Virus record (IMG/VR): IMGVR_UViG_3300031631_000010
Location: 1-36,643 of that record
Origin: a virus
Reading direction: 5' to 3' (one strand)
Length of the DNA stretch: 36,643 nt
Shown: piece after piece, positions 1,843 to 30,839 of the stretch
How the letters are laid out: each line of letters opens with the position of its first letter
Position numbering within the stretch: position 1 is the stretch's first letter
Translations under genes and position numbers: made by a program
Notes under the pieces: model-generated
The model's database searches: none
Told to the model about the DNA's origin: nothing
Seen by the model: the letters and a program-made list of their open reading frames with translations, nothing else

Positions 1843-1960
1843 TCCAGTACCCAGTCCAACTACACCAGCATCTCTAAAGAGTCAAGGTGTATCTAAACTG
1901 TCCACTAGACTGCCTTATGACTCCTCTAAAGGAGAAATTAAGGACCATAAGGGACTATAA
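1775..1960 (+). CDS. Hypothetical small protein, Pro/Ser/Lys-rich
   Basis: 61 residues from the ATG at 1775, chosen over the upstream ATG at 1718 because it has a purine-rich ribosome site (AAAGGACAAGAG) just upstream. The chain is polar with a low-complexity middle (NPVPSPTTPASLKSQG) and no hydrophobic segment. It overlaps the preceding gene at its start and the next gene by one base (TAATG), which suggests coupling. It may be a minor virion or assembly protein given the neighbours, but no family is recognised. Confidence 0.55.
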   Translation: MNVKKVSGDIGNKGFNTSLGKPNPVPSPTTPASLKSQGVSKLSTRLPYDSSKGEIKDHKGL

Positions 1961-2241
1961 TGTGTGCTGCAGGATATGCTGGACAACAAGCAGCAACAGG
2001 AAAACTACCTGTATCTACTCCAGCTACTGCAGCTCTAGAGTTTGCAGCAGGAGGTAGAGATCCTATACAGAACTTTAAGGAAACTACTGGTGCAGGACAG
2101 ACATTCTTTCCAGTAAAACCTCAAGCTCCAGCTGCTAGGAAGAAGGCTAAGAGAAACTCCGGTGCTGCTAGTAAAAGAACAGGAGGAGGACTTAGAGCTA
2201 ACAATCCTGCACTTCAGAGTTCAGGACTACAAATCAAGTGA
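1960..2241 (+). CDS. Small Ala/Gln/Lys-rich protein, candidate minor virion protein (T7 gp6.7/7.3-like ends)
   Basis: 93 residues. It begins MCAAGY, runs through an alanine-rich stretch into a basic linker (ARKKAKRNSG, ASKRTGGG) and ends SSGLQIK. T7 gp7.3 also has a basic C-terminal half ending in a Gly-rich hydrophobic tail, and the two proteins at 17448 and 17672 share both the MC start and the GL(N/Q)(I/L) end. A small tail or ejection-channel component is therefore a fair guess, though overall similarity is low. Ribosome site AAGGGA; start overlaps the previous stop. Confidence 0.65.
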   Translation: MCAAGYAGQQAATGKLPVSTPATAALEFAAGGRDPIQNFKETTGAGQTFFPVKPQAPAARKKAKRNSGAASKRTGGGLRANNPALQSSGLQIK

Positions 2242-15248: not shown

Positions 15249-17179
15249 CAAGTGTAAGAGCACAAGTAATAACCAGACGTACATACAATAGACCTACGAA
15301 GACAGGGTATGAAACGTGGGAGGACACAGTTGATAGAGTCATTAAGCATCAAGGGTGGTTGTGGGATAGGGCTTTAGGTAAGCCCTTCCCTGACGGTACA
15401 GACTATCAGGCTATCTGTCCTGAGCTAGAAGAACTAAGACAGCTCATGTTAGAACGTAAGGTAATGGTATCAGGTAGAACCCTATGGTTAGGGGGAACAG
15501 AGGTAGCTAAGAAGCGTGAGGCTTCTCAGTTTAATTGTGCACACTTAAAAGTGGAGACTATACATGACGTTGTTGACTCTTTGTGGTTGCTGTTACAAGG
15601 ATGTGGTGTCGGCTTTACGCCAGTTGTTGGGACACTCTCAGGCTTCACCCAACCTATTACAACAAGTACGATCTTACGGTCTAAACGTACAAAGAAAGGA
15701 GGACACGAAGGAAACAAAGAGTCTTTCGATAGTGGGACTTGGACAGTTACAGTTGGAGACTCCGCTGAAGCTTGGGCAAAGTCTATCGGTAAGATTCTGG
15801 CATACAAAGGGAAAGCTACAGAGTTCGTACTTGATCTCACTCAACTCAGACCAGCAGGACAACGGCTGGCAGGATACGGGTGGATCTCTTCAGGTGATGG
15901 GCCAATATCAAAAGCCTTCACAGCTATTGTTCGGATTCTAACCAAGAAGGCAGGGCAGTTACTGAGTAAGATGGACATCCTAGATGTTATGAACTGGTTA
16001 GGTACTGTGTTATCTTCTAGGAGATCAGCAGAGATAGCCCTGGTCTACCATGATACTCCAGATTGGGAACAGTTCGCAAGAGCTAAGGAGGACTTAGCAT
16101 CCACACCACATCGTGCTCAATCTAATAACAGTGTAGTATTCTGGAGGGAACCAAGTGATAGTGAACTCGACATGGTCTTTCAAATCATTAAAGAATCAGG
16201 AGGATCGGAGCCGGGAATTATTAATGGAGAGGAAGCTAGACGCAGAGCACCTTGGTTCTCAGGAGTTAACCCTTGTGCTGAAATACTCCTTGGGAACAAA
16301 AGTTTCTGTAACCTTTCCGAAGTTGATCTATTTAAATTCAAGGATGACAGCGGTGGGTTGGATAGGGCTTTGTTTCTTGCAGGTAGGGCTAACTATAGGC
16401 AGACACTTGTCAACCTCGATGATGGAATACTACAAAGAACTTGGCACGAGAACAATGAATACCTTCGTCTCTGTGGAGTCGGACTTACAGGGATCGCCAC
16501 CCGTGAAGATCTTAATTCGTATGATTATAAAAGGTTTAAAAACCTAGCCATCCACGGAGCATACTCTATGGCTGACGAGCTAGGCACTCAGCGGCCTAAA
16601 AATGTTACTACTATTAAACCTAGTGGTACACTAAGTAAGATCATGGACACCACTGAGGGCTGTCACAAGCCAATGGGTAAGTACATCTTTAACAATGTTA
16701 ACTTTAGTATCAATGATCCTATGTTACCTAAGCTAAGGGAAGCGGGGTATCATGTTATACTTAATCCTACTGATGAGCATAACGCCATCGTCACATTCCC
16801 AGTAGCTTGGGAGAACATTAGGTTTGATAAGGAAGGAGATCTTTATGTCAATAAGGAGTCTGCTATTGAACAACTCACAAGATACAAGTTACTCATGGAT
16901 TCTTACGTGGAGCAGAACTGTTCGATTACGGTATCTTATACAGAAGATGAAGTCCCTGCTATTAGAGATTGGCTTAAGAGTAATTGGTCTAGCTATGTTG
17001 GTGTTAGCTTTCTTCCCATTACTAATACTACCTACGAGTACCTCCCCCAAGAAGTAGTTACGGAGGCTAGGTATAAAGAGTATGTATCACAACTAACTGA
17101 TGTAGATTTTAGTGACACTGATAGTACACATGAGATAGAGAATGATGAGTGTGAGTCAGGTGTTTGTCCTGTTAAATAA
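15245..17179 (+). CDS. nrdJ: Ribonucleoside-triphosphate reductase, class II (B12-dependent), monomeric
   Basis: Converts ribonucleotides to deoxyribonucleotides for replication, using adenosylcobalamin. 644 residues, started by TTG 15245 with GGAGG upstream. It matches the monomeric RTPR type: C98 in QFNCAHL, radical C344 with N342 and E346 in NPCAEI, C355 in SFCNLSEV (the same 11-residue spacing as C408/C419 in the Lactobacillus enzyme), and a C-terminal redox pair C636-x4-C641. There is no separate small subunit nearby, as expected. Typical of marine podoviruses. The host or its surroundings must supply cobalamin. Confidence 0.94.
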   Translation: MTSVRAQVITRRTYNRPTKTGYETWEDTVDRVIKHQGWLWDRALGKPFPDGTDYQAICPELEELRQLMLERKVMVSGRTLWLGGTEVAKKREASQFNCAHLKVETIHDVVDSLWLLLQGCGVGFTPVVGTLSGFTQPITTSTILRSKRTKKGGHEGNKESFDSGTWTVTVGDSAEAWAKSIGKILAYKGKATEFVLDLTQLRPAGQRLAGYGWISSGDGPISKAFTAIVRILTKKAGQLLSKMDILDVMNWLGTVLSSRRSAEIALVYHDTPDWEQFARAKEDLASTPHRAQSNNSVVFWREPSDSELDMVFQIIKESGGSEPGIINGEEARRRAPWFSGVNPCAEILLGNKSFCNLSEVDLFKFKDDSGGLDRALFLAGRANYRQTLVNLDDGILQRTWHENNEYLRLCGVGLTGIATREDLNSYDYKRFKNLAIHGAYSMADELGTQRPKNVTTIKPSGTLSKIMDTTEGCHKPMGKYIFNNVNFSINDPMLPKLREAGYHVILNPTDEHNAIVTFPVAWENIRFDKEGDLYVNKESAIEQLTRYKLLMDSYVEQNCSITVSYTEDEVPAIRDWLKSNWSSYVGVSFLPITNTTYEYLPQEVVTEARYKEYVSQLTDVDFSDTDSTHEIENDECESGVCPVK

Positions 17180-17435: not shown

Positions 17436-17447
17436 AAGGAGAAGAGC

Positions 17448-17669
17448 GTGTTAAACTTATTAAATGTATTGATGTGTATGGGAGGATCTCCTCCGCCTCC
17501 CCCTCCTCCCCCGCCTCCTCCTCCTCCCCCTCCTAGTCCTCCAGCTGATATAGCTAAGGTGTCTACTAGTAAGACAGCTCAAGCTAAAGCTAAGTCTAGA
17601 ACAGGAAAGAAGTCTAGAGGTAAGAGTGGTCTTAAAACAGGTGGTCCTACTGGATTGAATATAGGTTAA
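17448..17669 (+). CDS. Small polyproline virion protein (T7 gp7.3-like C-terminus)
   Basis: 73 residues from GTG 17448, which has a good AAAGGAG site. The ATG at 17472 would give a product starting MCMGGSP, like its relatives. Fifteen consecutive prolines (17487-17531) are followed by a basic, Lys/Ala/Thr-rich linker (KTAQAKAKSRTGKKSRGKSG) and the end TGLNIG. T7 gp7.3, encoded just before the portal gene, has a similar basic tail ending in Gly-Ile-Asn-Ile. A tail or ejection-conduit role is inferred from this and from position. Confidence 0.7.
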   Translation: MLNLLNVLMCMGGSPPPPPPPPPPPPPPPSPPADIAKVSTSKTAQAKAKSRTGKKSRGKSGLKTGGPTGLNIG

Positions 17670-17671
17670 CT

Positions 17672-18184
17672 ATGTGTGATCCAGTTTCCATTGGTATTGC
17701 TATTGGTGCTAGTGTAGGAGCCATCAGTGCTGCAGCTACTGGTGGTAATATATTACAAGGAGCACTAATAGGTGGTGTTACTGGTGCGTTTACTGGAGGT
17801 ACTGGTGGACTAGGAGCAGGAAGTGTGAGTTCTAGTATAGGTGGATCATTAGGGGCTAGTACTAGTACCTCGTTGTTTGCTGCAGTTGGAAGTTCAGTAA
17901 CAACTGCGGGAGCGTTAGGATTTGCAGCTAGTGGATTAGCTGGAGGACTCCTTCTTGGAGCCTTAGCACCTAAATCTCCTGTATATCCCGGCTTCACTCC
18001 TCAAGCCCAGCAGTCGTTCAACTCACAGAACATAGCAACAACAGGCAGTGGTGGCAGACAAGCTACTGCTTCCTTAGCTACTGCTATTCAACGTAGCAAG
18101 AAAAGAAAGCTAACTCAAGAAGACGTAGGTGATCTAAGTATAGACACCGGGTCATTCGCTAACACAGGACTACAACTAGCATGA
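17672..18184 (+). CDS. Gly/Ala-rich small virion protein upstream of portal
   Basis: 170 residues beginning MCDPVS. The first 105 residues are a continuous Gly/Ala/Ser hydrophobic stretch (IGIAIGASVGAISAAATGG, GGLLLGALAPKSP) able to form membrane helices. A polar part and a basic segment (QRSKKRKLTQED) follow, and the end is NTGLQLA. This would suit a protein ejected into the host envelope. The end overlaps the portal start (ATGA). It shares both termini with the small proteins at 1960 and 17448. Confidence 0.7.
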   Translation: MCDPVSIGIAIGASVGAISAAATGGNILQGALIGGVTGAFTGGTGGLGAGSVSSSIGGSLGASTSTSLFAAVGSSVTTAGALGFAASGLAGGLLLGALAPKSPVYPGFTPQAQQSFNSQNIATTGSGGRQATASLATAIQRSKKRKLTQEDVGDLSIDTGSFANTGLQLA

Positions 18185-19728
18185 TGCAAACTAACAAACG
18201 CTACTCAAGCATGTGCCGTGACAAGCAGTGCTTCTTAGAGGTAGCATGGGAGAGTGCAGAGCTAACATTGCCTTTCATCCTTCCTAGGAATGGTGATAGA
18301 AACACAGTCCTTCCTACACCCTACCAAAGCATAGGAGCTAAAGGCGTTAACAGTCTAAGCTCTAAGTTTCTCCTCACTCTATTCCCTCCTAACTCTCCCT
18401 TCATGAAGTACCAGATAGATGACTTCATGTTAGAAGAGCTACAAGCACAACGTGCTCCAGTAGAAGAAGGACTTAACTCTATGGAGAGAGCCATTAGTAA
18501 TGAGGTAGAAGCTAAGGCTATGCGTGTACCACTTAATGAATGTCTACGTCACCTAGTTATCACTGGTAACTGTGTACTTCATGTGGGTAAGAAGAATAAG
18601 ATTAGAGTATTCCACCTAGATCAATTCTGTGTAAGACGAGATCCCCAAGGTGAGATGCTAGAGATCATAGTTAAGGAAGAGATGTCTAGAGAATTATACA
18701 TGGACATCTTTAAGTCTTCACCTCCTAAGGAAACTGGAGATGACTCAGACAGTACTGAGAAAGTACTAGAGTTATTCACAGTAGTCAGAAGAAAGGGAGA
18801 TAAGATTGTAGTACACCAAGAGGTGAACAACATGAAGATCCCTAACACTGACTCAAACTTTCCTTTAGAGAAGAACCCCTGGTTAGCCTTAAGGTACAAT
18901 GCTATTGATGGTGAAGACTATGGTAGAGGATTCGTAGAAGAATACTTAGGAGACCTAAGAGCAGCAGACGGATTGAACAGGAGTATCCTTGAAGGAACTG
19001 CAGCGGCAGCCAAGGTTATATTCCTAGTTAAACCTAATGGTACAACTAAGATGAAGTCTGTTATTGCACCTAACCTATCCGTTAGGCAGGGCAATGCGGA
19101 TGATGTAGGTGTCATACAAGTACAGAAGTTCAATGACTTCAGGGTAGCCAGAGAAACACTTGAGGTTATTGAACGTAGACTAGCTTCTGCCTTCTTATTA
19201 CTAGAAGGAGTACAGAGGAATGCAGAGAGAGTCACAGCAGAAGAGATTAGAATGATGGCACAGGAGATTGATACCTCAAAGGGAGGAGTATATTCATTAC
19301 TATCCCATGAGTTACAGCTTCCATTAGTCAAACGAATACAAGCAGGACTAGAGAAAGATGGTAAGCTTCCCAAGCTACCAGAAGGAACCGTGGAACCTGT
19401 TATCATTACAGGCTACGAGGCTTTAGGTAGAGGTAATGATGCTAACAAACTAGCTACCTTTATTCAGACTCTAACTCAAACCTTAGGACCAGAAGTAGTA
19501 GCAAAGTATATCAATGTAGGAGACTTTGCTAAGAGAATTGGTGTAGGCTTTGGTATTGATATGAAGGGTTTAGTTAAGTCTCAAGAGGAAGTCCAACAAG
19601 AACAACAAGCTCAACAACAAGCCCAGCAACAGGCTGAGATGGTTAAAGCCGGAGTACCCAATGCTGTTACACAGGGTGGTGAAATGATGAGAGCACAACA
19701 ACAAGGAGCACAACAGCAAGATGGCTAA
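18181..19728 (+). CDS. Portal protein, head-tail connector (T7 gp8-like)
   Basis: Forms the dodecameric ring at the head vertex through which DNA enters and leaves. 515 residues against 536 in T7. Characteristic blocks are TPYQSIGAKGVNSLSSKFLL near the N-terminus, DYGRGFVEEYLGDLR in the middle, and QRNAERVTAEEIRMMAQEID with GGVYSLLSHELQLPLVKR later. The C-terminus is Gln-rich (QQEQQAQQQAQQQAEM). The start overlaps the previous stop as ATGA. Confidence 0.96.
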   Translation: MMQTNKRYSSMCRDKQCFLEVAWESAELTLPFILPRNGDRNTVLPTPYQSIGAKGVNSLSSKFLLTLFPPNSPFMKYQIDDFMLEELQAQRAPVEEGLNSMERAISNEVEAKAMRVPLNECLRHLVITGNCVLHVGKKNKIRVFHLDQFCVRRDPQGEMLEIIVKEEMSRELYMDIFKSSPPKETGDDSDSTEKVLELFTVVRRKGDKIVVHQEVNNMKIPNTDSNFPLEKNPWLALRYNAIDGEDYGRGFVEEYLGDLRAADGLNRSILEGTAAAAKVIFLVKPNGTTKMKSVIAPNLSVRQGNADDVGVIQVQKFNDFRVARETLEVIERRLASAFLLLEGVQRNAERVTAEEIRMMAQEIDTSKGGVYSLLSHELQLPLVKRIQAGLEKDGKLPKLPEGTVEPVIITGYEALGRGNDANKLATFIQTLTQTLGPEVVAKYINVGDFAKRIGVGFGIDMKGLVKSQEEVQQEQQAQQQAQQQAEMVKAGVPNAVTQGGEMMRAQQQGAQQQDG

Positions 19729-19963
19729 CAAGAATACAGAGTCTAAAGACAAGCAGAAAGCAAAGGATAAAGTAGCACGATCCGTTACGAGTAAAGCTGA
19801 GTTTAAGAATGTAGAGATCAACAATGAGATCCTTGAGCAGAGACCTAGCTCACGGACCAATGGTGGACTAGAGTCTACCTACACTAAGATCCAGCTACGT
19901 AATGGAACAATCAAAGAAACTTATGGAGAGAGATATGGCAAACCAGCTGACAGTGCCAAGTGA
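19721..19963 (+). CDS. Hypothetical protein between portal and scaffold
   Basis: 80 residues, charged and probably disordered at first (NKNTESKDKQKAKDKVARS), then a more ordered part (EFKNVEINNEILEQ, YTKIQLRNGTIKETYGE). Start overlaps the end of the portal gene by eight bases and its own end overlaps the scaffold gene. The position suggests a role in assembly, but no family is recognised. Confidence 0.6.
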   Translation: MANKNTESKDKQKAKDKVARSVTSKAEFKNVEINNEILEQRPSSRTNGGLESTYTKIQLRNGTIKETYGERYGKPADSAK

Positions 19964-23333: not shown

Positions 23334-23939
23334 ATGGCATTTATATCACAGGTTCCTATGACAGAACTTCAAGCAGTCAATATTCTGTTGGCTGCTATAG
23401 GTGAAGCAGCTGTATCTAGTTTAGAAACAGCTACTACTGTGGAAGTTACTCAGGCTAAGAACTTGTTAAGCAACACCAACAGAGCAATACAGCAGAAGGG
23501 GTGGCATTTCAATACAGAGTGGGATGTTATTATGACCTTGGATTCTGAAAGTCTAGTACCAGTAGGTTCTAATGTACTGTCTATTATGATTCCAAATAAA
23601 CTAACTACCTTAAGAGGACGTTCTGGTTCTCCTTTTCTATATGACTTAGAGAACAATACATTCACCTTTGGGAGTGCTCCTAACAATGCTGTTACTATTA
23701 CATTACTTGATTTTGTGGATACACCACACACGTTCAGGCAGTATGTAACCGTAAGATCAGCTAGGATCTTCCAAGAGGAGATCGTAGGTCAGGTGTCTGC
23801 AGAACAGATCAACAGAATAGAAGAGAGTGAAGCCTATGCAGATCTCTTGGATGATGAAACAGATAGAGCTGGATACAATGTAGGATATAGTGATGTTGAT
23901 ATGTATAATATAACTAAGAAACATAGGAAGCTCTGGTAG
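23334..23939 (+). CDS. Tail tubular protein A, adaptor (T7 gp11-like)
   Basis: Forms the ring connecting portal to nozzle. 201 residues against 196 in T7. It starts with the typical TELQAVNILLAAIGEAAVSS, followed by AIQQKGWHFNTEWD, and later carries VTVRSARIFQEEIVGQ. The next gene begins immediately after its stop. Assignment rests on these blocks plus the fixed gene order. Confidence 0.95.
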   Translation: MAFISQVPMTELQAVNILLAAIGEAAVSSLETATTVEVTQAKNLLSNTNRAIQQKGWHFNTEWDVIMTLDSESLVPVGSNVLSIMIPNKLTTLRGRSGSPFLYDLENNTFTFGSAPNNAVTITLLDFVDTPHTFRQYVTVRSARIFQEEIVGQVSAEQINRIEESEAYADLLDDETDRAGYNVGYSDVDMYNITKKHRKLW

Positions 23940-26426
23940 ATGCCTCTAATATCTGAACAAATAAGTAACCTAATCAATGGTGTTTCACAGCAACCTCCTA
24001 GTTTACGACTAGCCTCCCAAGCACAAGTACAAGAGAATGCTATGGCTACGGTTGCTGAGGGTCTTAAGAAGAGACCACCATTAGAGCATGTAACTAAGCT
24101 TAATAATAAAACAGATATTGATGCTAAAGTTCACTTTATAAACAGGGATGCTAATGAGAGATATGTAGTTCTAGTAACTTCAGATCAGTTTGATTCAGCA
24201 TTCTCTGGTGACTTCTCTGGAACAGAGATGGAGATGTTTAGTTTAGACTCTCCGGTTAACACTTGGGATGTTTCTTTTAGTGAAGCCTTTGGTCCACATG
24301 TTTACTCTCGTGTAATCAGTGGTGGATCTTCAGGTGACACCTTACCTTACATTACAGTTAAGGATGCTAGAGATAACCTAAGGTTATTCACTGTAGCCGA
24401 TACCTCCTTTGTATTAAATAAGACCCTAGTAACAGCTAAGAGTACCTCTACGGCAGCCTCACGTGCCCCTGAAGGCATTGTTTTTCTTAAGCAAGCCTCT
24501 AATGCTACTGCCTTTAAAGTCTTCATAGACGGCACTGACGTAGGCTCTATATCTAATAATAACAGTGCTGATATTTTAGTTACAAATATAGCTAATGCTA
24601 TGGCTACTCCCGGCTTCACGATTACTAAGTTTGGTAGTAGTAATGTTCATGTTACCAAAAATGATGGGTCAGACTTCACCTTACATGCGGAAGCTCCCTC
24701 AGCTAACATGATAGCCATTAAGGATACTGTAGTAGACTTCACGGACCTCCCTGCTAGAACCAAAGATGGGTTTATCATTAAGGTCACAGGTGATCCTGGT
24801 AGCTCTTCAGATGACTACTGGTTAAAACATAACAATCAATCAGACGTAGATACAGGTGAGTGGGTAGAAACTGTAGAACCAGGTTTAGCTAATACTATTG
24901 ATCCTACTACGATGCCTATTAAGCTCACTAGATCTGCCCCTGATCCTTGGGATGATGCCTTTGCTGATGACTATGGTACTGACGAGTTCAGTCTAGCTCA
25001 GATTACATGGACAGATAGAGTAATTGGAGACCTAGAGACAGCTCCTGATCCTTCCTTTATTGGGGAGACATTCAATGACATGTCCTTCCATAAGAATAGA
25101 TTAAGTTTCCTAGCTGGTGAGAATATTATACTCTCTGAGTTAGGGGAGTTCTTTAATTTCTATGCAACTACGGCTACTGATCTCTTAGATACAGATCTTA
25201 TTGATCTAGCTGCACCTACTAATGAAGTCAGTACACTACAGAACTTTGTACCCTTCAATGAAAACCTGATGATCTTTAGTGACTTCTCTCAATTTAAATT
25301 GACAGAGTTTGCTGCTGGAGGTCTCACTCCAACTAACGCTAAGTTATCCCTACTCACACAGTATGATCATGAGAAGCTTGTAACACCTGTAGTTAATGGT
25401 AGAAAGCTTTACTTCAGTGATGAGAATGATGGCTTCAGTGTTATACGTGAGTTTGGTGTCATAGAAGATCTACAAGAAGAGACAGCTGAAGATATCACAA
25501 GTCATATCCCTAGTTACATTAAGGGTAAAGGATTTTCTATAGTAGTTCATGAGGAGTTCTTATTTGTACTATCAGATGAGAATCTAAATGAAGTCTTTAC
25601 TTATAAGTTCCTATTCCAAACTGGTCAGAAGAAGTTAAGCTCGTGGGGTAAGTGGGTCTTCAAGCCTGAAGAGAAGGTCATAGGCGTTAAGATCATAGAA
25701 CATATAGCATACTTTATTATAGTAAGACCTGACGGTACATACTTAGATAAGATGTCCTTACAGGATGCTAACCTAGTGGGTCTCACAGAGTCTCCTACCC
25801 AGCTCCCCTTTAAGGTACACCTTGACAGACTAGTAGAGTCTAAAGGCGTATATGATTCAGCAGCAAACACTACTACTTGGTTTGTACCTTATCCTGATAA
25901 CTTTGGATCTACCTTTAGAGTAGTCCTTGGTCCTCAATGGGTAGGCAGAGAAGGTTCCTTAGTACAGAGTATAACCCAGATTCATACAAATACTATGGTT
26001 ATGCTTAGGGCTACTGGTGACTTCTCCACACATAATGTATTCATAGGTAAAGAGTACCAGTTCCTGTATGAGTTCACTGAGCCTACTATTAAGACAGAAG
26101 TAGGTGGTAGATTAAGTTCTCTCTCAGGTGGTATCTTGAAGATCCGTAAGTTTAACATAGATTATTTTAAGACAGGATACTTTAAGATGAAGATAACTGC
26201 TCCCGGTAGGGAAGCTTTTAATCATGTATTCACTGGACGTATCCTTGGTTCTGCTCTTAATAAGATTGGAACTATCCCATTTGAGACAGGTAGCTTCAAG
26301 AAGCTCATACTCTCAGATGCTAAGGATCTTAAGATAGAACTAATATCAGACTCATACCTCCCCTGTGCCTTCACTGGTGCTGATTGGGAAGGAAATTATG
26401 TAGTCAGAACTGTAGCTAGAAGGTAA
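23940..26426 (+). CDS. Tail tubular protein B, nozzle (T7 gp12-like)
   Basis: Forms the hexameric nozzle that carries the fibres. 828 residues against 794 in T7. The N-terminus SNLINGVSQQPPSLRLASQ, then AEGLKKRPPLEHV, is diagnostic. The middle contains FNDMSFHKNRLSFLAGENII and QFKLTEFAAGGLTPTNAKL, also typical. The start codon is an ATG directly abutting the previous stop (TAGATG), so translation is coupled. Confidence 0.96.
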   Translation: MPLISEQISNLINGVSQQPPSLRLASQAQVQENAMATVAEGLKKRPPLEHVTKLNNKTDIDAKVHFINRDANERYVVLVTSDQFDSAFSGDFSGTEMEMFSLDSPVNTWDVSFSEAFGPHVYSRVISGGSSGDTLPYITVKDARDNLRLFTVADTSFVLNKTLVTAKSTSTAASRAPEGIVFLKQASNATAFKVFIDGTDVGSISNNNSADILVTNIANAMATPGFTITKFGSSNVHVTKNDGSDFTLHAEAPSANMIAIKDTVVDFTDLPARTKDGFIIKVTGDPGSSSDDYWLKHNNQSDVDTGEWVETVEPGLANTIDPTTMPIKLTRSAPDPWDDAFADDYGTDEFSLAQITWTDRVIGDLETAPDPSFIGETFNDMSFHKNRLSFLAGENIILSELGEFFNFYATTATDLLDTDLIDLAAPTNEVSTLQNFVPFNENLMIFSDFSQFKLTEFAAGGLTPTNAKLSLLTQYDHEKLVTPVVNGRKLYFSDENDGFSVIREFGVIEDLQEETAEDITSHIPSYIKGKGFSIVVHEEFLFVLSDENLNEVFTYKFLFQTGQKKLSSWGKWVFKPEEKVIGVKIIEHIAYFIIVRPDGTYLDKMSLQDANLVGLTESPTQLPFKVHLDRLVESKGVYDSAANTTTWFVPYPDNFGSTFRVVLGPQWVGREGSLVQSITQIHTNTMVMLRATGDFSTHNVFIGKEYQFLYEFTEPTIKTEVGGRLSSLSGGILKIRKFNIDYFKTGYFKMKITAPGREAFNHVFTGRILGSALNKIGTIPFETGSFKKLILSDAKDLKIELISDSYLPCAFTGADWEGNYVVRTVARR

Positions 26427-26428
26427 AC

Positions 26429-26875
26429 ATGAAGCCGTACCATAGAGTATCTACCTTAGAGGACATGGCATACTTGTCATTGAACCTAAGGTATGAAGAT
26501 AAACGTGAAGTAGAAACACTAGGACATACTCCTGAACAATCCCTAGCCTTAGGCTTTGGTCATAGTCGTATATGTAGGTCTATTATAAACCATCGTGGGA
26601 TAGTAGTTGGAGTCTATGGTGTAGTTCCTTTGTCTGACATTACAGGACAAGTATGGATGTTAGGATCAGAGGGATTAGTTAAGATCAAGACTACCTTCTT
26701 GAGACAATCAAGATCAGTAGTTGAGGGGTTGAATGAGATATTTCCTCACCTCTGTAACTTTATAGATAGCCGCAACGATGTTCACCTCAGGTGGATCAAC
26801 TGGTGTGGCTTTAAGATAATTGGAGAAAAGATGATTAATAATGTGAAGTTCTATGAATTCTGTAGGGTAGCTTAA
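26429..26875 (+). CDS. Internal virion protein A-like (T7 gp13-like), GNAT-type fold
   Basis: 148 residues, located where T7 has gene 13 (138 residues). The pattern of helix (EDMAYLSLNLRYEDKREVE), strands (GIVVGVYGVVPLSDITGQVW) and a late WINWCGFKIIGE block matches the small acetyltransferase-like proteins found at this position in many podoviruses. In T7 gp13 is needed for morphogenesis. Enzymatic activity is not implied. Start two bases after the nozzle stop. Confidence 0.8.
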   Translation: MKPYHRVSTLEDMAYLSLNLRYEDKREVETLGHTPEQSLALGFGHSRICRSIINHRGIVVGVYGVVPLSDITGQVWMLGSEGLVKIKTTFLRQSRSVVEGLNEIFPHLCNFIDSRNDVHLRWINWCGFKIIGEKMINNVKFYEFCRVA

Positions 26876-27450
26876 TGAGTGAATGGTTATATGCTGCCCA
26901 ATTTGCTTTGTCAGCTGCCAGTGCTGCTAACGAGTATCAACAGGCTGAACAACAGGCTGCAGAACAGAGAAGGCAAGCTGGACAACAAGCAGCTATTAAT
27001 AATAAGTTAGCTTATAATGCTCACCTTAATCTAAATCAGCAGCAGATGCTAGAAATGCAGAAGTTTGGTTTTGAGAAGAGAGATCTTCAGAAGAGCATAA
27101 GAGCTAAGAGAGCTACTAATGAAGCAATACGAGCTAGTTTTGGTGGATCTTTAGGACAACAAGGGGCCACCTTGGATGCTACTATCCTAAATATTAATAG
27201 ACATGGGTTTGAAGCTCTTGCTCGTAAAGACTTAAACTTTAAGACTCTAGCAGCTGACTTCAATATTAGACACAGAAATGTAACACTAGAGACAGAGAGT
27301 AAAAACAATCAAGCTTTCAGTGGATTAAGTACTGGTGGAAGTGCTCTAGGAACAGGCTTAAGTATCTTAGGTACTGGACTACAGACTAAAATAAACTATG
27401 ATAAAGGTACTACACGAACTGTATCAACACCTCCTCCAGGTACTAAATAA
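26875..27450 (+). CDS. Internal virion protein B-like (T7 gp14-like)
   Basis: 191 residues against 196 in T7. Ejected at infection, in T7 to make a channel through the outer membrane. Here the N-terminus is an Ala-rich helix (AAQFALSAASAANEYQQAEQ) followed by Gln-rich helices. The protein contains a segment RRQAGQQAAINNKLAYNAHL and a Gly-rich section near the end (LSTGGSALGTGLSILGTGLQ). It overlaps the genes on either side by one base. Confidence 0.85.
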   Translation: MSEWLYAAQFALSAASAANEYQQAEQQAAEQRRQAGQQAAINNKLAYNAHLNLNQQQMLEMQKFGFEKRDLQKSIRAKRATNEAIRASFGGSLGQQGATLDATILNINRHGFEALARKDLNFKTLAADFNIRHRNVTLETESKNNQAFSGLSTGGSALGTGLSILGTGLQTKINYDKGTTRTVSTPPPGTK

Positions 27451-30400
27451 TGCCATCTTCTGAAAAACTCTTTACATTAGACCCTGTAAAGACCTCTCTT
27501 ACTAAAACTACTACAGATGTTAAAGTACAGGGTCCAGCTAATAGGACTGTGGAAAACAGTCAACTATTAAAAGGAGTACAAACCTTTAGTAGTGCAGTGG
27601 GATCTCTTGCTGAAGTTAAGAAACAGAAACAAATAGCTGATGATACTCTCCTAGCTAACAATGCAGCTATCAGAGGAGAAGCAGAACCAGCTGGAATATT
27701 TGGTATAGCTTCTGAATCATATGACAGAATAGTTGAAGCTAATACTCTAACTAAAGCCTCAAGAGATATGCAAGCTTTTATAGATGGCTCTGAAGGTGCT
27801 GATTTAGTTAATGCTACTGGTTCATATAGTGAGAATGTAGCTGCTGCAGATAAAGCTTTTGATACCTTTAAAGCTTATGGAGCATCCTCCTATCTAAATC
27901 CCCAGCTGTTAAATGAATTTTATAGTACCGTAGAGACAAAGAGAAACGAAGTTAAAATAGAAATAGCTAAGGTCAATAAAGAGCGCAATAGATCTCAAGT
28001 TATTCAACGAATAGTAAACGTAGTTGATACCGTAGTTGATGTTAGTAAAGACATCTTTCAAGGTGGAGTAGAGTCTGATTCATCTGACATAGAAGGTACT
28101 GATGAGTATCCAATTCTTTTCTCCTTAGATTCTAATATCACACCCGAATTAGTCAATACCCTTGCTGCTGATACAGTAGCTTTAAACATGGGTTTAGAAC
28201 TTCCAGAGGCACAACGGTTGGTAATGCAAGTGTTCCTTCAGAATGAGACTGTTATAGCCCAACCTTCTCTTGCAGATAAGTTAATGTCTAGTGAGTATTC
28301 TCCTGGTGTTACTTATGAGGCTTTATATATTAAAGGATCACTTGCTTCTAATAAAGACAAGGATGCTGCTGATATTTTTAAGATGAGGAATGCACAGATA
28401 TCTGCTACTAATGCCCACTTTGAAAACCTAGATAAACAAGATGAAGACGATGCTAAAAAAAGAACAGCCAGGGGTAAAGAAGCTGTAGCCAACTCTCTTA
28501 AGGGTGGTGGATCAAATGAAGATGCTTATGGAACAGGAGTACAGTTTGGACTGGCAATACAGGATGTAACTAAACTCATTACTGCACAAGAAAGTTTCGA
28601 GGGTAACGTAAAACTTGGACTTGATTCCCCACAAGGAATATCACTTATGAAGCAGATAGCAAATGGAGGAGTAACTCCAGAAGATATAGCTATAGCTATA
28701 CATGACCAAAACTTAGATCCAGGTGATGAGGAATTCTACAAAGTACTAGCATCTAAGGAGAAGACCCAAACCCTAGCTGCTCAGAAATCCTATGATAGCC
28801 AGATAAAGATAGTTAAATCAAATACATTGCAGTTACTTAAAGGTGCTCTAAACAATAATAGTGCGGTGACACTAGATGAAAATGGTAAGGTGAAGTTCGA
28901 TCTGGTTGCACTTGCAGCACAAGCTGTGGGAGGTTCTCAGGGTCTAGACTCTGCCGAAGTACAAGACGTAATGGTAAGACTACAAACACTACAAAATGAC
29001 TATGAGTATAGGTCTAATGAGGCTGCCAGAGAGGTAGCTAGATCTGATACTTTTGATAGGGCTGCTGTAACTAAGTTTGGTGATGATTATAATAATGCCG
29101 TTGCTCTCTTTATATCAGATCTAAAAAAGAATATTATTTCTTCAAGTGCTGCTAAGAAGGAGAGGAAGAAAGAAGCTGACAAAGCAGCAGCTGACAAAGT
29201 AGTAAAAGATACAAAAGTAGGGGATGAAACAAAAGATAAAGTTGAGACTATATTACCTCCTCCGCTCTCTACTAAAGACCAGATTGAAAACCTTACAGAA
29301 CTAAAAACAGATTCTAAAGGCTTGATAGATAGACTTCTAGAAGACAGTAAGATCTTATATGATAACTTACAAGTGAGTAAACCAAAAGAACCAACAACCG
29401 GAGCAGACCTCATTTCTCCTAAGGAACCAGTATTATCTCCAGGAGAACAGACATACTTGGATACGTTAACTAAGGAAGCTCCAGAGGTAACAGGTCAAGT
29501 AGAAGGTAAACAGCCTCGTACTACAGGACTAGGACCAGCTGCGGATGCTATAGACTCCTTCTTTGATAAAGTTGGTGACAACGCTAATTTCCTTGTGGAA
29601 ACTCTAAGTGATATGCAAAGAGAGAAGTTCTTCTATAATACTTTTAAAGAATTCTTTAGTCCTAATGAAGCAGGAGCAGCTGATTCTAGTACTGATGGTT
29701 TTGATCCAGATGCTCCTGGCCCAAGCGACTTTAATGATAATAATGATCCTACAGATGGTGAAATAACTTTAACTAAAGGTCCACCATTAGTATTAAGAGA
29801 GGATACAGGTAAAGTTACGTCTGAGGGACGTAGGGTATATAAGAACAATCTAGGCGGGGAATCTTCTGAGTATACTATAGGAGTCAAGAACTCTAAAATA
29901 AACAACGGTGAACTAACTCACATACCTAGTATATACAAGGGTAAACTAGTAACCGAAGAAGAAGCTATAAGAATTATTTCTGAGAATGATGGTGTAGATC
30001 CAGAAACAGGTAGATTTATTACTGCTGGTGGAGATCCTGAGGCTAGATCTAAAGCTATTACTTCTAGTAAAAATAATATTGCATATTCTTCTTTTGGTTC
30101 TTCTGGTACAGAGTTTACTAGAAGTATGGCAAACCTACCTACTAACCATAAGTTCATGGCTGAATCTGAGTTCTCTAAGGGAAACTTTAAAGACCTAGGT
30201 TCTAAACCTTATGTGTCTAGCATCTTAGCAGGAGAATTAAACTTAAAAGGAAAAGCAAGATCTATAACAGATGTTAAAGATGTTCCTAATACTAATAGTA
30301 TACATGGGGACAAAGTTAAAGCAGGAAAAACAGGACTTACCATAGGCTTTGGTCACGACATATCACCTCAAGAGTTAAAGTCTGGTGAGATACATGGAGT

Positions 30401-30839
30401 ACCTTTTGTAAAAGATGGTAAGTTTATTGATGTTGGAGTAGAAGCTTTAACTGAAATATTCAATGCAGACTTTGAACATCACAAAGGGAGAGCTGAACGT
30501 ACATTCAATAGTAAAGTTGGAAACTCTGTAGGTTATAAGTTTGAAGAGCTGCCTACTGAGGTTCAGGACTTTATGACAGATATCGACTTTAATATGGGCC
30601 TTACTAAAATACCTAAATCTCTAGCTATTATTAAATCTATAATATCAACAGCTTTAAGAACTAAGCGTGGAATAACTGAAGTTTCCATGGAGCCTGTTCT
30701 CAATGTACTGGAGAAAGAGATTAAGGAACGTGACACTAAGAACCCTGAAAGCGGTGTTCAACGGAGATCTAATAAAGCTTTTAAAGACTTTAGAACAAGA
30801 GAAGGACTTAAAAGCTTATTTAAACTTAAAGGTAACTAA
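27450..30839 (+). CDS. Internal virion protein C-like (T7 gp15-like) with C-terminal lysozyme-like domain
   Basis: 1129 residues against 747 for T7 gp15. Residues about 1-590 are helical and resemble the ejected core protein gp15. A Lys/Pro/Glu-rich linker follows (about 590-760). A small domain at about 773-870 (TIGVKNSKINNGELTHIPSI, YKGKLVTEEEA) is of a type often found in large phage virion proteins. The last 200 or so residues hold TGLTIGFGHDISPQE (T964, H969) and FMTDIDFNMGLTKIP, resembling phage GH24/pesticin-type lysozymes. In T7 the wall-cutting domain is instead in gp16. Catalytic Glu not assigned. Confidence 0.82.
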   Translation: MPSSEKLFTLDPVKTSLTKTTTDVKVQGPANRTVENSQLLKGVQTFSSAVGSLAEVKKQKQIADDTLLANNAAIRGEAEPAGIFGIASESYDRIVEANTLTKASRDMQAFIDGSEGADLVNATGSYSENVAAADKAFDTFKAYGASSYLNPQLLNEFYSTVETKRNEVKIEIAKVNKERNRSQVIQRIVNVVDTVVDVSKDIFQGGVESDSSDIEGTDEYPILFSLDSNITPELVNTLAADTVALNMGLELPEAQRLVMQVFLQNETVIAQPSLADKLMSSEYSPGVTYEALYIKGSLASNKDKDAADIFKMRNAQISATNAHFENLDKQDEDDAKKRTARGKEAVANSLKGGGSNEDAYGTGVQFGLAIQDVTKLITAQESFEGNVKLGLDSPQGISLMKQIANGGVTPEDIAIAIHDQNLDPGDEEFYKVLASKEKTQTLAAQKSYDSQIKIVKSNTLQLLKGALNNNSAVTLDENGKVKFDLVALAAQAVGGSQGLDSAEVQDVMVRLQTLQNDYEYRSNEAAREVARSDTFDRAAVTKFGDDYNNAVALFISDLKKNIISSSAAKKERKKEADKAAADKVVKDTKVGDETKDKVETILPPPLSTKDQIENLTELKTDSKGLIDRLLEDSKILYDNLQVSKPKEPTTGADLISPKEPVLSPGEQTYLDTLTKEAPEVTGQVEGKQPRTTGLGPAADAIDSFFDKVGDNANFLVETLSDMQREKFFYNTFKEFFSPNEAGAADSSTDGFDPDAPGPSDFNDNNDPTDGEITLTKGPPLVLREDTGKVTSEGRRVYKNNLGGESSEYTIGVKNSKINNGELTHIPSIYKGKLVTEEEAIRIISENDGVDPETGRFITAGGDPEARSKAITSSKNNIAYSSFGSSGTEFTRSMANLPTNHKFMAESEFSKGNFKDLGSKPYVSSILAGELNLKGKARSITDVKDVPNTNSIHGDKVKAGKTGLTIGFGHDISPQELKSGEIHGVPFVKDGKFIDVGVEALTEIFNADFEHHKGRAERTFNSKVGNSVGYKFEELPTEVQDFMTDIDFNMGLTKIPKSLAIIKSIISTALRTKRGITEVSMEPVLNVLEKEIKERDTKNPESGVQRRSNKAFKDFRTREGLKSLFKLKGN

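Follow-up and report, generated by a model that had tools for sequence, protein, structure and literature searches.

How do three small proteins of one phage come to end in nearly the same residues, and what might such an end do? The window analysed here is a linear IMG/VR record of 36,643 bases from a T7-like podophage, and the first-pass annotation had read three of its small proteins as beginning with Met-Cys (MC) and sharing a GL(Q/N)(I/L) end. All three reading frames and the quoted termini are present in the sequence, and a Lys/Arg-rich stretch precedes the C-terminus in each. ORF-A (1960..2241, + strand) encodes 93 residues with an MC start, a basic stretch and a GLQIK end (codons 2224-2238); it is a lineage-specific gene following the terminase gene (36-1334). 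ORF-B (17448..17669, +) encodes 73 residues counted from a GTG, comprising a leader LNLLNVL, the MC, a poly-Pro segment, a Lys-rich segment and the end GLNIG (codons 17652..17666, +), which we propose as a nozzle-docking end. ORF-C (17672..18184, +) encodes 170 residues with an MCDPVS N-terminus of the gp14 type, a Gly/Ala/Ser-rich hydrophobic part and a conserved C-terminal part, RSKKRKLTQEDVGDLSIDTGSFANTGLQLA, that ends in GLQLA (codons 18167..18181, +). The parallels drawn with T7 are accurate in that T7 gp6.7 begins MC and T7 gp7.3 ends GINI; T7 gp14 begins MC as well. The landmark for what follows is the gp8-like portal gene, or head-tail adaptor (18181..19728, +; phrog_449, E 1.2e-160), which is followed by the scaffold gene at 19902, a gp11-like tail protein or adaptor (23334..23939, +; phrog_446, E 1.2e-42), a gp12-like nozzle matched over its full length and proposed here as the docking partner (23940..26426, +; phrog_457, E 1.5e-179), a gp13-like protein at 26429 (phrog_308) and the phage's own gp14-like ejection protein, which lacks an MC start (26875..27450, +; PF24072, E 4.1e-11). 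The 1129-residue protein at the gp15 position (27450-30839) matches no PHROG family at E 0.01. No DNA-level relatives were found in the phage collection with positions 10000-34000 as nucleotide query, and the portal is about 41-52% identical to the nearest portal proteins among the 60 matches listed.

ORF-B had been taken to begin with MC at ATG 17472. No ribosome-binding site lies near that codon, whereas GTG17448 has an AGGAG (17437..17441, +) at the proper distance, and the leader that follows it, (V/M)L-x-LL-x-x-x-(L/A) before the Cys, is conserved among ORF-B relatives as amino acids (VLNLLNVL, VLQLLSVL, VLELLNIL, MLELLSTIA, MLGLLTVL and MLGLLSTIL within the lineage). The residue before the Cys is Leu rather than Met in relatives from loci L006, L008, L009 and L011. 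The better start is GTG17448, eight codons 5′ of the MC, and the Met of that MC is not a start. The N-terminus of ORF-B is therefore not MC, although the Cys itself is conserved, and Met removal, which had been suggested to expose an N-terminal Cys, would not do so in ORF-B; proteolytic processing as a role of the common termini finds no support either. The hydrophobic leader before the Cys in the window lineage could instead recall a lipoprotein-type or processed N-terminus. A lipobox has a leader with positive charge and a small residue directly before the Cys. The ORF-B leaders, at 9-11 residues, have no positive charge and no such small residue, so the Cys does not sit in a usual lipobox, and most other members of the family described below begin right at MC. 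We regard a lipoprotein as barely credible here.

The family placement of ORF-B comes from profile A4, built from 22 proteins of which none is from T7, the phage ICP3 or the window and one is an ORF-B relative (from L041). Members of this family run from a conserved N-terminal Cys through a Pro-rich arm to a Lys-rich segment containing [SG]-L-x-[IV], which a short spacer separates from the G-[LIV]-[NQ]-[IV] at the C-terminus. ORF-B aligns with A4 over positions 1-73 of 75 (E 3.3e-10) and is its sole match in the window. Its end, KSRGKSGLKTGGPTGLNIG, carries the terminal G-[LIV]-[NQ]-[IV] after a basic stretch and [SG]-L-x-[IV], with the first half of this bipartite end in the imperfect form SGLKT, and the portal gene begins shortly downstream. 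This match places ORF-B in a widespread family that, as set out below, also appears to include T7 gp6.7 and gp7.3. Other searches reach ORF-B less directly. It does not match the curated gp7.3 models (Pfam VirionAssem_T7 and phrog_1320), to the second of which its relative L041_B shows a weak match (E 0.021), and it does match phrog_13568 (E 5.7e-4) and phrog_831 (E 1.5e-3). A model of the C-terminal tail alone, trained on 51 sequences that lie outside the window and T7 lineages and were picked for carrying the motif, scores ORF-B poorly (E 11) and its relatives L041_B and L003_B better (E 2.9e-5 and 0.005); T7 gp7.3 (E 0.001) and ICP3 orf36 (E 0.04) outrank all shuffled decoys (best 1.9) with this model. 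A PDB search with ORF-B alone returned only low-complexity proline matches, and one with the pelagiphage protein HTVC011P_b returned nothing.

The same profile joins two T7 proteins. Run against the whole T7 genome in six frames, A4 finds exactly gp6.7 (E 6.6e-7) and gp7.3 (E 1.4e-5), the two small ejected proteins of T7, and in ICP3 it finds exactly orf34 (E 1.1e-7) and orf36 (E 6.2e-6). Across the first 11 phage records 8 match, with no match in phiKMV, SP6 and S-CBP3, and among a further 12 records, six of which contributed members to A4, 11 match; a reversed-sequence control gave a match in 1 of 16 records (E 0.0017, with an internal stop). Against 177,635 PDB sequences A4 returns only gp6.7 (E 7.7e-5), the gp6.7-like Gp17 of 9vvp (E 0.001) and gp7.3, whose E of 0.02 is close to the best value of the reversed-sequence control (0.037, for a non-phage protein); none of the 13 control matches is gp6.7, Gp17 or gp7.3. 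An earlier profile, A2, was dropped in favour of A4 as family evidence since it contains T7 gp6.7 and gp7.3, which makes its PDB search circular. At the level of PHROGs, 11 of 34 members match PHROG 1391 (gp6.7) and 8 match PHROG 1320 (gp7.3), the T7 and ICP3 proteins being among the 34; ICP3 orf34 goes to the gp6.7 PHROG (E 1.2e-18) and orf36 to that of gp7.3 (E 5.5e-12), and RHEph01 gp31 matches both (gp6.7 family 0.0035, gp7.3 family 0.0011). T7 gp6.7 and gp7.3 thus appear, on these profile comparisons, to belong to one family, a link drawn in the present analysis; among the open-access papers listed, no title or abstract opening mentions the terminal motif or treats gp6.7 and gp7.3 as one family.

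Several members in sequenced phages merit separate mention. In ICP3 (NC_015159.1, our L199), orf34 and orf36 (18130-18381 and 18824-19114) are clear gp6.7/gp7.3 relatives, and a 2026 preprint called the orthologs in this phage "not readily identifiable." Pseudomonas phage LUZ100 (OP329100.1, 16627-16830; L201:837-1040) encodes a second, unannotated MC protein of the gp6.7 type, 67 residues long, which overlaps the annotated gp32 in another frame. In pelagiphage HTVC011P (KC465900.1, 15760-15987; L200:1261-1488) the annotated start at 15826 removes the MC and the Pro-rich N-terminus, and the better start is ATG 15760, which has a ribosome site.

Whether the terminal motif exceeds chance among related proteins was a question posed with the original proposal, and as judged from gene neighbourhoods it does, in the stretch before the portal gene. 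The comparison covers 105 portal loci (103 from IMG/VR, the window and T7), with L020, L029 and L030 excluded because the portal gene is 5′-cut; C-termini count as distinct at less than 70% identity over the last 30 residues. The end G[LIVTM][NQSKT][ILV] lies within the last ten residues of 58 of the 248 distinct proteins encoded at most 1.5 kb upstream of the portal gene (shuffles: mean 2.5, maximum 7), compared with 4/410 farther upstream (shuffle 2.9) and 11/463 downstream (shuffle mean 3.6, maximum 10). The strict end GL[NQ][IL]x0-1 is found in 9/248 distinct C-termini before the portal, 1/410 farther upstream and 0/463 downstream, and the single protein farther upstream is ORF-A itself. 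Cys is the second residue, as far as starts called by a simple script that can misplace them allow, in 59/248, 4/410 and 30/463 proteins, respectively, and gp14 homologues account for many of the MC proteins downstream; second-residue Cys and the looser C-terminal motif occur together in 38 proteins before the portal, 2 farther upstream and 1 downstream. MC is common and not obligatory, with some family members starting MGG or MGKK, and it is not strictly defining because T7 gp7.3 and the MGG members lack it. Counted by locus (81 loci with at least 1000 nt upstream, not de-duplicated), 57 have a motif-bearing ORF before the portal gene, against 3/59 control segments and 3/81 on the minus strand; 19 have the motif there twice or more, and 24 (about 30%) have no full motif. 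In some loci of the last kind (L094, L106 and L108) the end is a lone half-motif resembling S-L-R-I. The first half of the bipartite motif, taken as [LFM]-x-[IV] after basic residues, is found in 49/248 proteins before the portal versus 6.0 in shuffles, with no excess farther upstream (7/410, shuffle 8.7) and little downstream (18/463, shuffle 14.7), while LRI-type ends are only moderately enriched before the portal (23/248, shuffle 6.9). Motif proteins form arrays of two or three neighbouring genes in L045, L047, L096, L105 and L113, and in Bordetella phage BB8 the adjacent p39 and p40 both start with MC and reach GLNIP, although their central parts differ. L067 has a further case outside the usual place: there the fourth gene after the portal encodes a small MC protein of 70 residues ending in GLQIRRD.

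ORF-A and ORF-C must be weighed separately from ORF-B. Neither was detected by the C-tail model or by A4 in the window-wide search, which returned ORF-B only, and neither matches a PHROG even at E 10. The misses by the C-tail model mean that only a short end of four or five residues is common to them, and the resemblance of ORF-A is confined to its ends. All of this speaks for a reading in which ORF-A and ORF-C came to their ends by convergence or accident, ORF-B is the sole member of a nozzle-docking family and the likeness of the three is coincidental. We consider this quite possible but lean against it, since 872 of the 873 distinct C-termini outside the pre-portal stretch lack the strict end, ORF-A being the exception, and since the ends are kept within each lineage: three distinct ORF-A versions are known, with relatives in L117, L118 and L197 ending in GLQIT and one in L191 in GMQI beside the GLQIK of the window (G[LM]QI overall), and GLQ[LIF]A is fixed in all 10 aligned ORF-C members even though their N-terminal parts differ. 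The idea that the common termini are a docking signal thus holds in part: the motif is enriched and has a known counterpart in T7 gp7.3, but ORF-A and ORF-C lie outside the family profiles.

The 10 aligned ORF-C relatives have MC, a highly divergent Gly-rich hydrophobic N-terminal part and a conserved C-terminal part; comparing ORF-C with those from L003, L005, L006, L008, L009 and L035-L037 gives the impression of an exchanged N-terminal module, with similar C-terminal parts joined to very different hydrophobic ones. A gp14 N-terminal model from 21 seeds, none of the window lineage and all picked for an MC start, gives ORF-C an E of 1e-5 and its relatives L041_C and L005_C 5e-5 and 7e-4, where the best of 260 shuffled decoys reaches 0.31; the other ORF-C relatives do not match it. 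When the gp14 model is restricted to residues 26 onward, no ORF-C relative is found among 30 matches at E < 0.01, and 21 of these 30 begin MC, a share biased upward because the seeds were chosen for that start. With a gp14-type N-terminus only and a body that is not gp14-like, ORF-C is not a gp14, and its gene sits before the portal rather than after the nozzle gene. Protein searches of the phage collection with ORF-C gave nothing, the PDB gave nothing of note, and an AlphaFold2 model from 10 relatives (helices 4-23 and 27-43) was set aside for its low confidence (mean pLDDT 47). The make-up of ORF-C suggests an N-terminus of the gp14 type fused to an end of the nozzle type. The window's own gp14 (26875-27450) lacks the MC start that is common in gp14 proteins, and ORF-C has one of the gp14 type; a function handed over between the two is possible.

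GLQLA also loosely resembles known hydrophobic C-terminal degrons, which would suit a signal for degradation by a host protease once the protein is ejected. Cellular proteases do degrade gp6.7 and gp7.3 after entry, according to PMC11784390. Many family ends, however, run on as GLNIPK or GLNIPS, unlike Ala-Ala-type tags, the motif is bound to a portal-proximal position and in T7 the nozzle occupies these very residues; a degradation tag is very unlikely. What the T7 virion offers is a seat. As described in PMC11784390, gp7.3 contributes six C-terminal loops covering residues 84-98 of its 99, and each loop is anchored to a pair of neighbouring nozzle subunits where the nozzle meets the adaptor, with K84/K85 contacting the DNA end and the remainder of the protein thought to run along the channel DNA; gp6.7 contributes twelve N-terminal loops (residues 2-15) around the portal barrel and lies in the core, with the portal barrel, gp14 and gp15 as its neighbours. 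Ejection is described for gp6.7 and gp7.3 alike. In gp7.3 the loop that is resolved corresponds to the bipartite end, KSLSV and then GGGINI, and we infer that its two halves contact one nozzle subunit of the pair each. Evolved T7 carries in-frame deletions in the middle of gp7.3, at about residues 39-55 (PMC12798971), as a linker would lead one to expect. Presence in virions was recorded by mass spectrometry for the pre-portal protein p2_32 of Peru-2 (PMC13320782) and, in phage phiPsa17, for its gp6.7 and gp7.3 homologues (PMC4517105), and a search of open-access literature yielded nothing useful on virion proteomics of small proteins in Syn5 or P-SSP7.

Taken with these T7 structures, the family placement makes it somewhat more probable than an even chance that ORF-B is this phage's member of a small, mostly disordered gp6.7/gp7.3 virion-protein family and docks by its C-terminus in the nozzle. 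Belonging to the family is not in itself proof of docking at the nozzle, since T7 gp6.7 lacks the GINI end and sits in the core. In the proposed arrangement the C-terminal end of ORF-B would seat at the nozzle-adaptor junction in the tail channel like that of T7 gp7.3, its Lys-rich stretch would hold the leading DNA end and its Pro-rich arm would run up the channel toward the portal, so that the protein would lie along the DNA end until ejection; upon adsorption the nozzle would open and proteins of the gp6.7/gp7.3 type would exit first. ORF-C, with an N-terminus of the type found in gp14, the outer-membrane pore protein, and ORF-A would use the same seat through the same terminal residues. 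We infer that all three proteins are present in the virion and docked at the nozzle, with one common docking site, for which ORF-B makes the best case. Because the genes adjoin the portal gene, the C-terminal residues might instead be a signal by which scaffold, portal or adaptor brings the proteins into the procapsid or a tail intermediate, rather than a final nozzle seat. Mature T7 shows the gp7.3 end on two adjacent nozzle subunits (PMC11784390), and incorporation and nozzle seating are compatible, so this alternative, which we hold to be improbable, differs mainly in emphasis.

Seating of ORF-B at the nozzle can be extended into a broader and more tentative reading, to which we give well under an even chance, in which the end GL[NQ][IL] serves as a portable tag for the nozzle and gp6.7 and gp7.3 descend from one two-ended protein. 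As a tag, it would be a short C-terminal address carried by gp7.3-type proteins and by unrelated ejection proteins such as ORF-A and the gp14-like pore-former ORF-C, and different cargo proteins, up to three per phage, would share the six nozzle seats and exit first. As to descent, the two-ended ancestor would tether portal to nozzle along the DNA in other phages, while T7 gp6.7 would keep the N-terminal MC end at the portal barrel and gp7.3 the C-terminal end at the nozzle. C-terminal nozzle docking of T7 gp7.3 is already published. Within the literature covered, the occurrence of the motif across phages, the grouping of gp6.7 with gp7.3 and the tagged ORF-C look new; the analysis further adds that one phage can encode several proteins of this kind and that a gp14-like protein may have re-used the end. 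Through A4, pre-portal proteins of unknown function in pelagiphages, cyanophages, roseophages and rhizobiophages gain a testable role in how the tail is closed and opened; A4 finds the family in ICP3 at once, and the reading predicts which further proteins would use the same seat.

Set beside the closest known systems, these proteins show both likenesses and differences. T7 gp7.3 (VirionAssem_T7, phrog_1320, PDB 9jyz) has the same pre-portal position, Lys-rich stretch, S-L-x-V and terminal G-[IL]-N-I as the family to which we assign ORF-B; unlike ORF-B, it starts MGKK and has no poly-Pro arm. T7 gp6.7 (T7-like_gp67, phrog_1391, PDB 9jyy), the best PDB match of A4, has the N-terminal MC, the Pro/Lys-rich arm and a later G-x-x-L-x-V, but it lies in the core and, unlike ORF-B, lacks a GLNI end at its C-terminus. 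Like gp14-type ejection proteins (PF24072), ORF-C starts MC[DEN]P[VAI][ST] and continues with Gly/Ala-rich hydrophobic segments, and unlike them it has an unmatched body and a pre-portal gene in a phage that has its own gp14 at 26875. A similar layout is that of the proline-rich Syn5 gp36, MC...SLRI...GGGLNIPK, which belongs to phrog_13568, one of the two PHROG families that ORF-B matches. Neither phrog_13568 nor phrog_831 has a function in PHROGs, and their connection to gp6.7 and gp7.3 is made in the present analysis.
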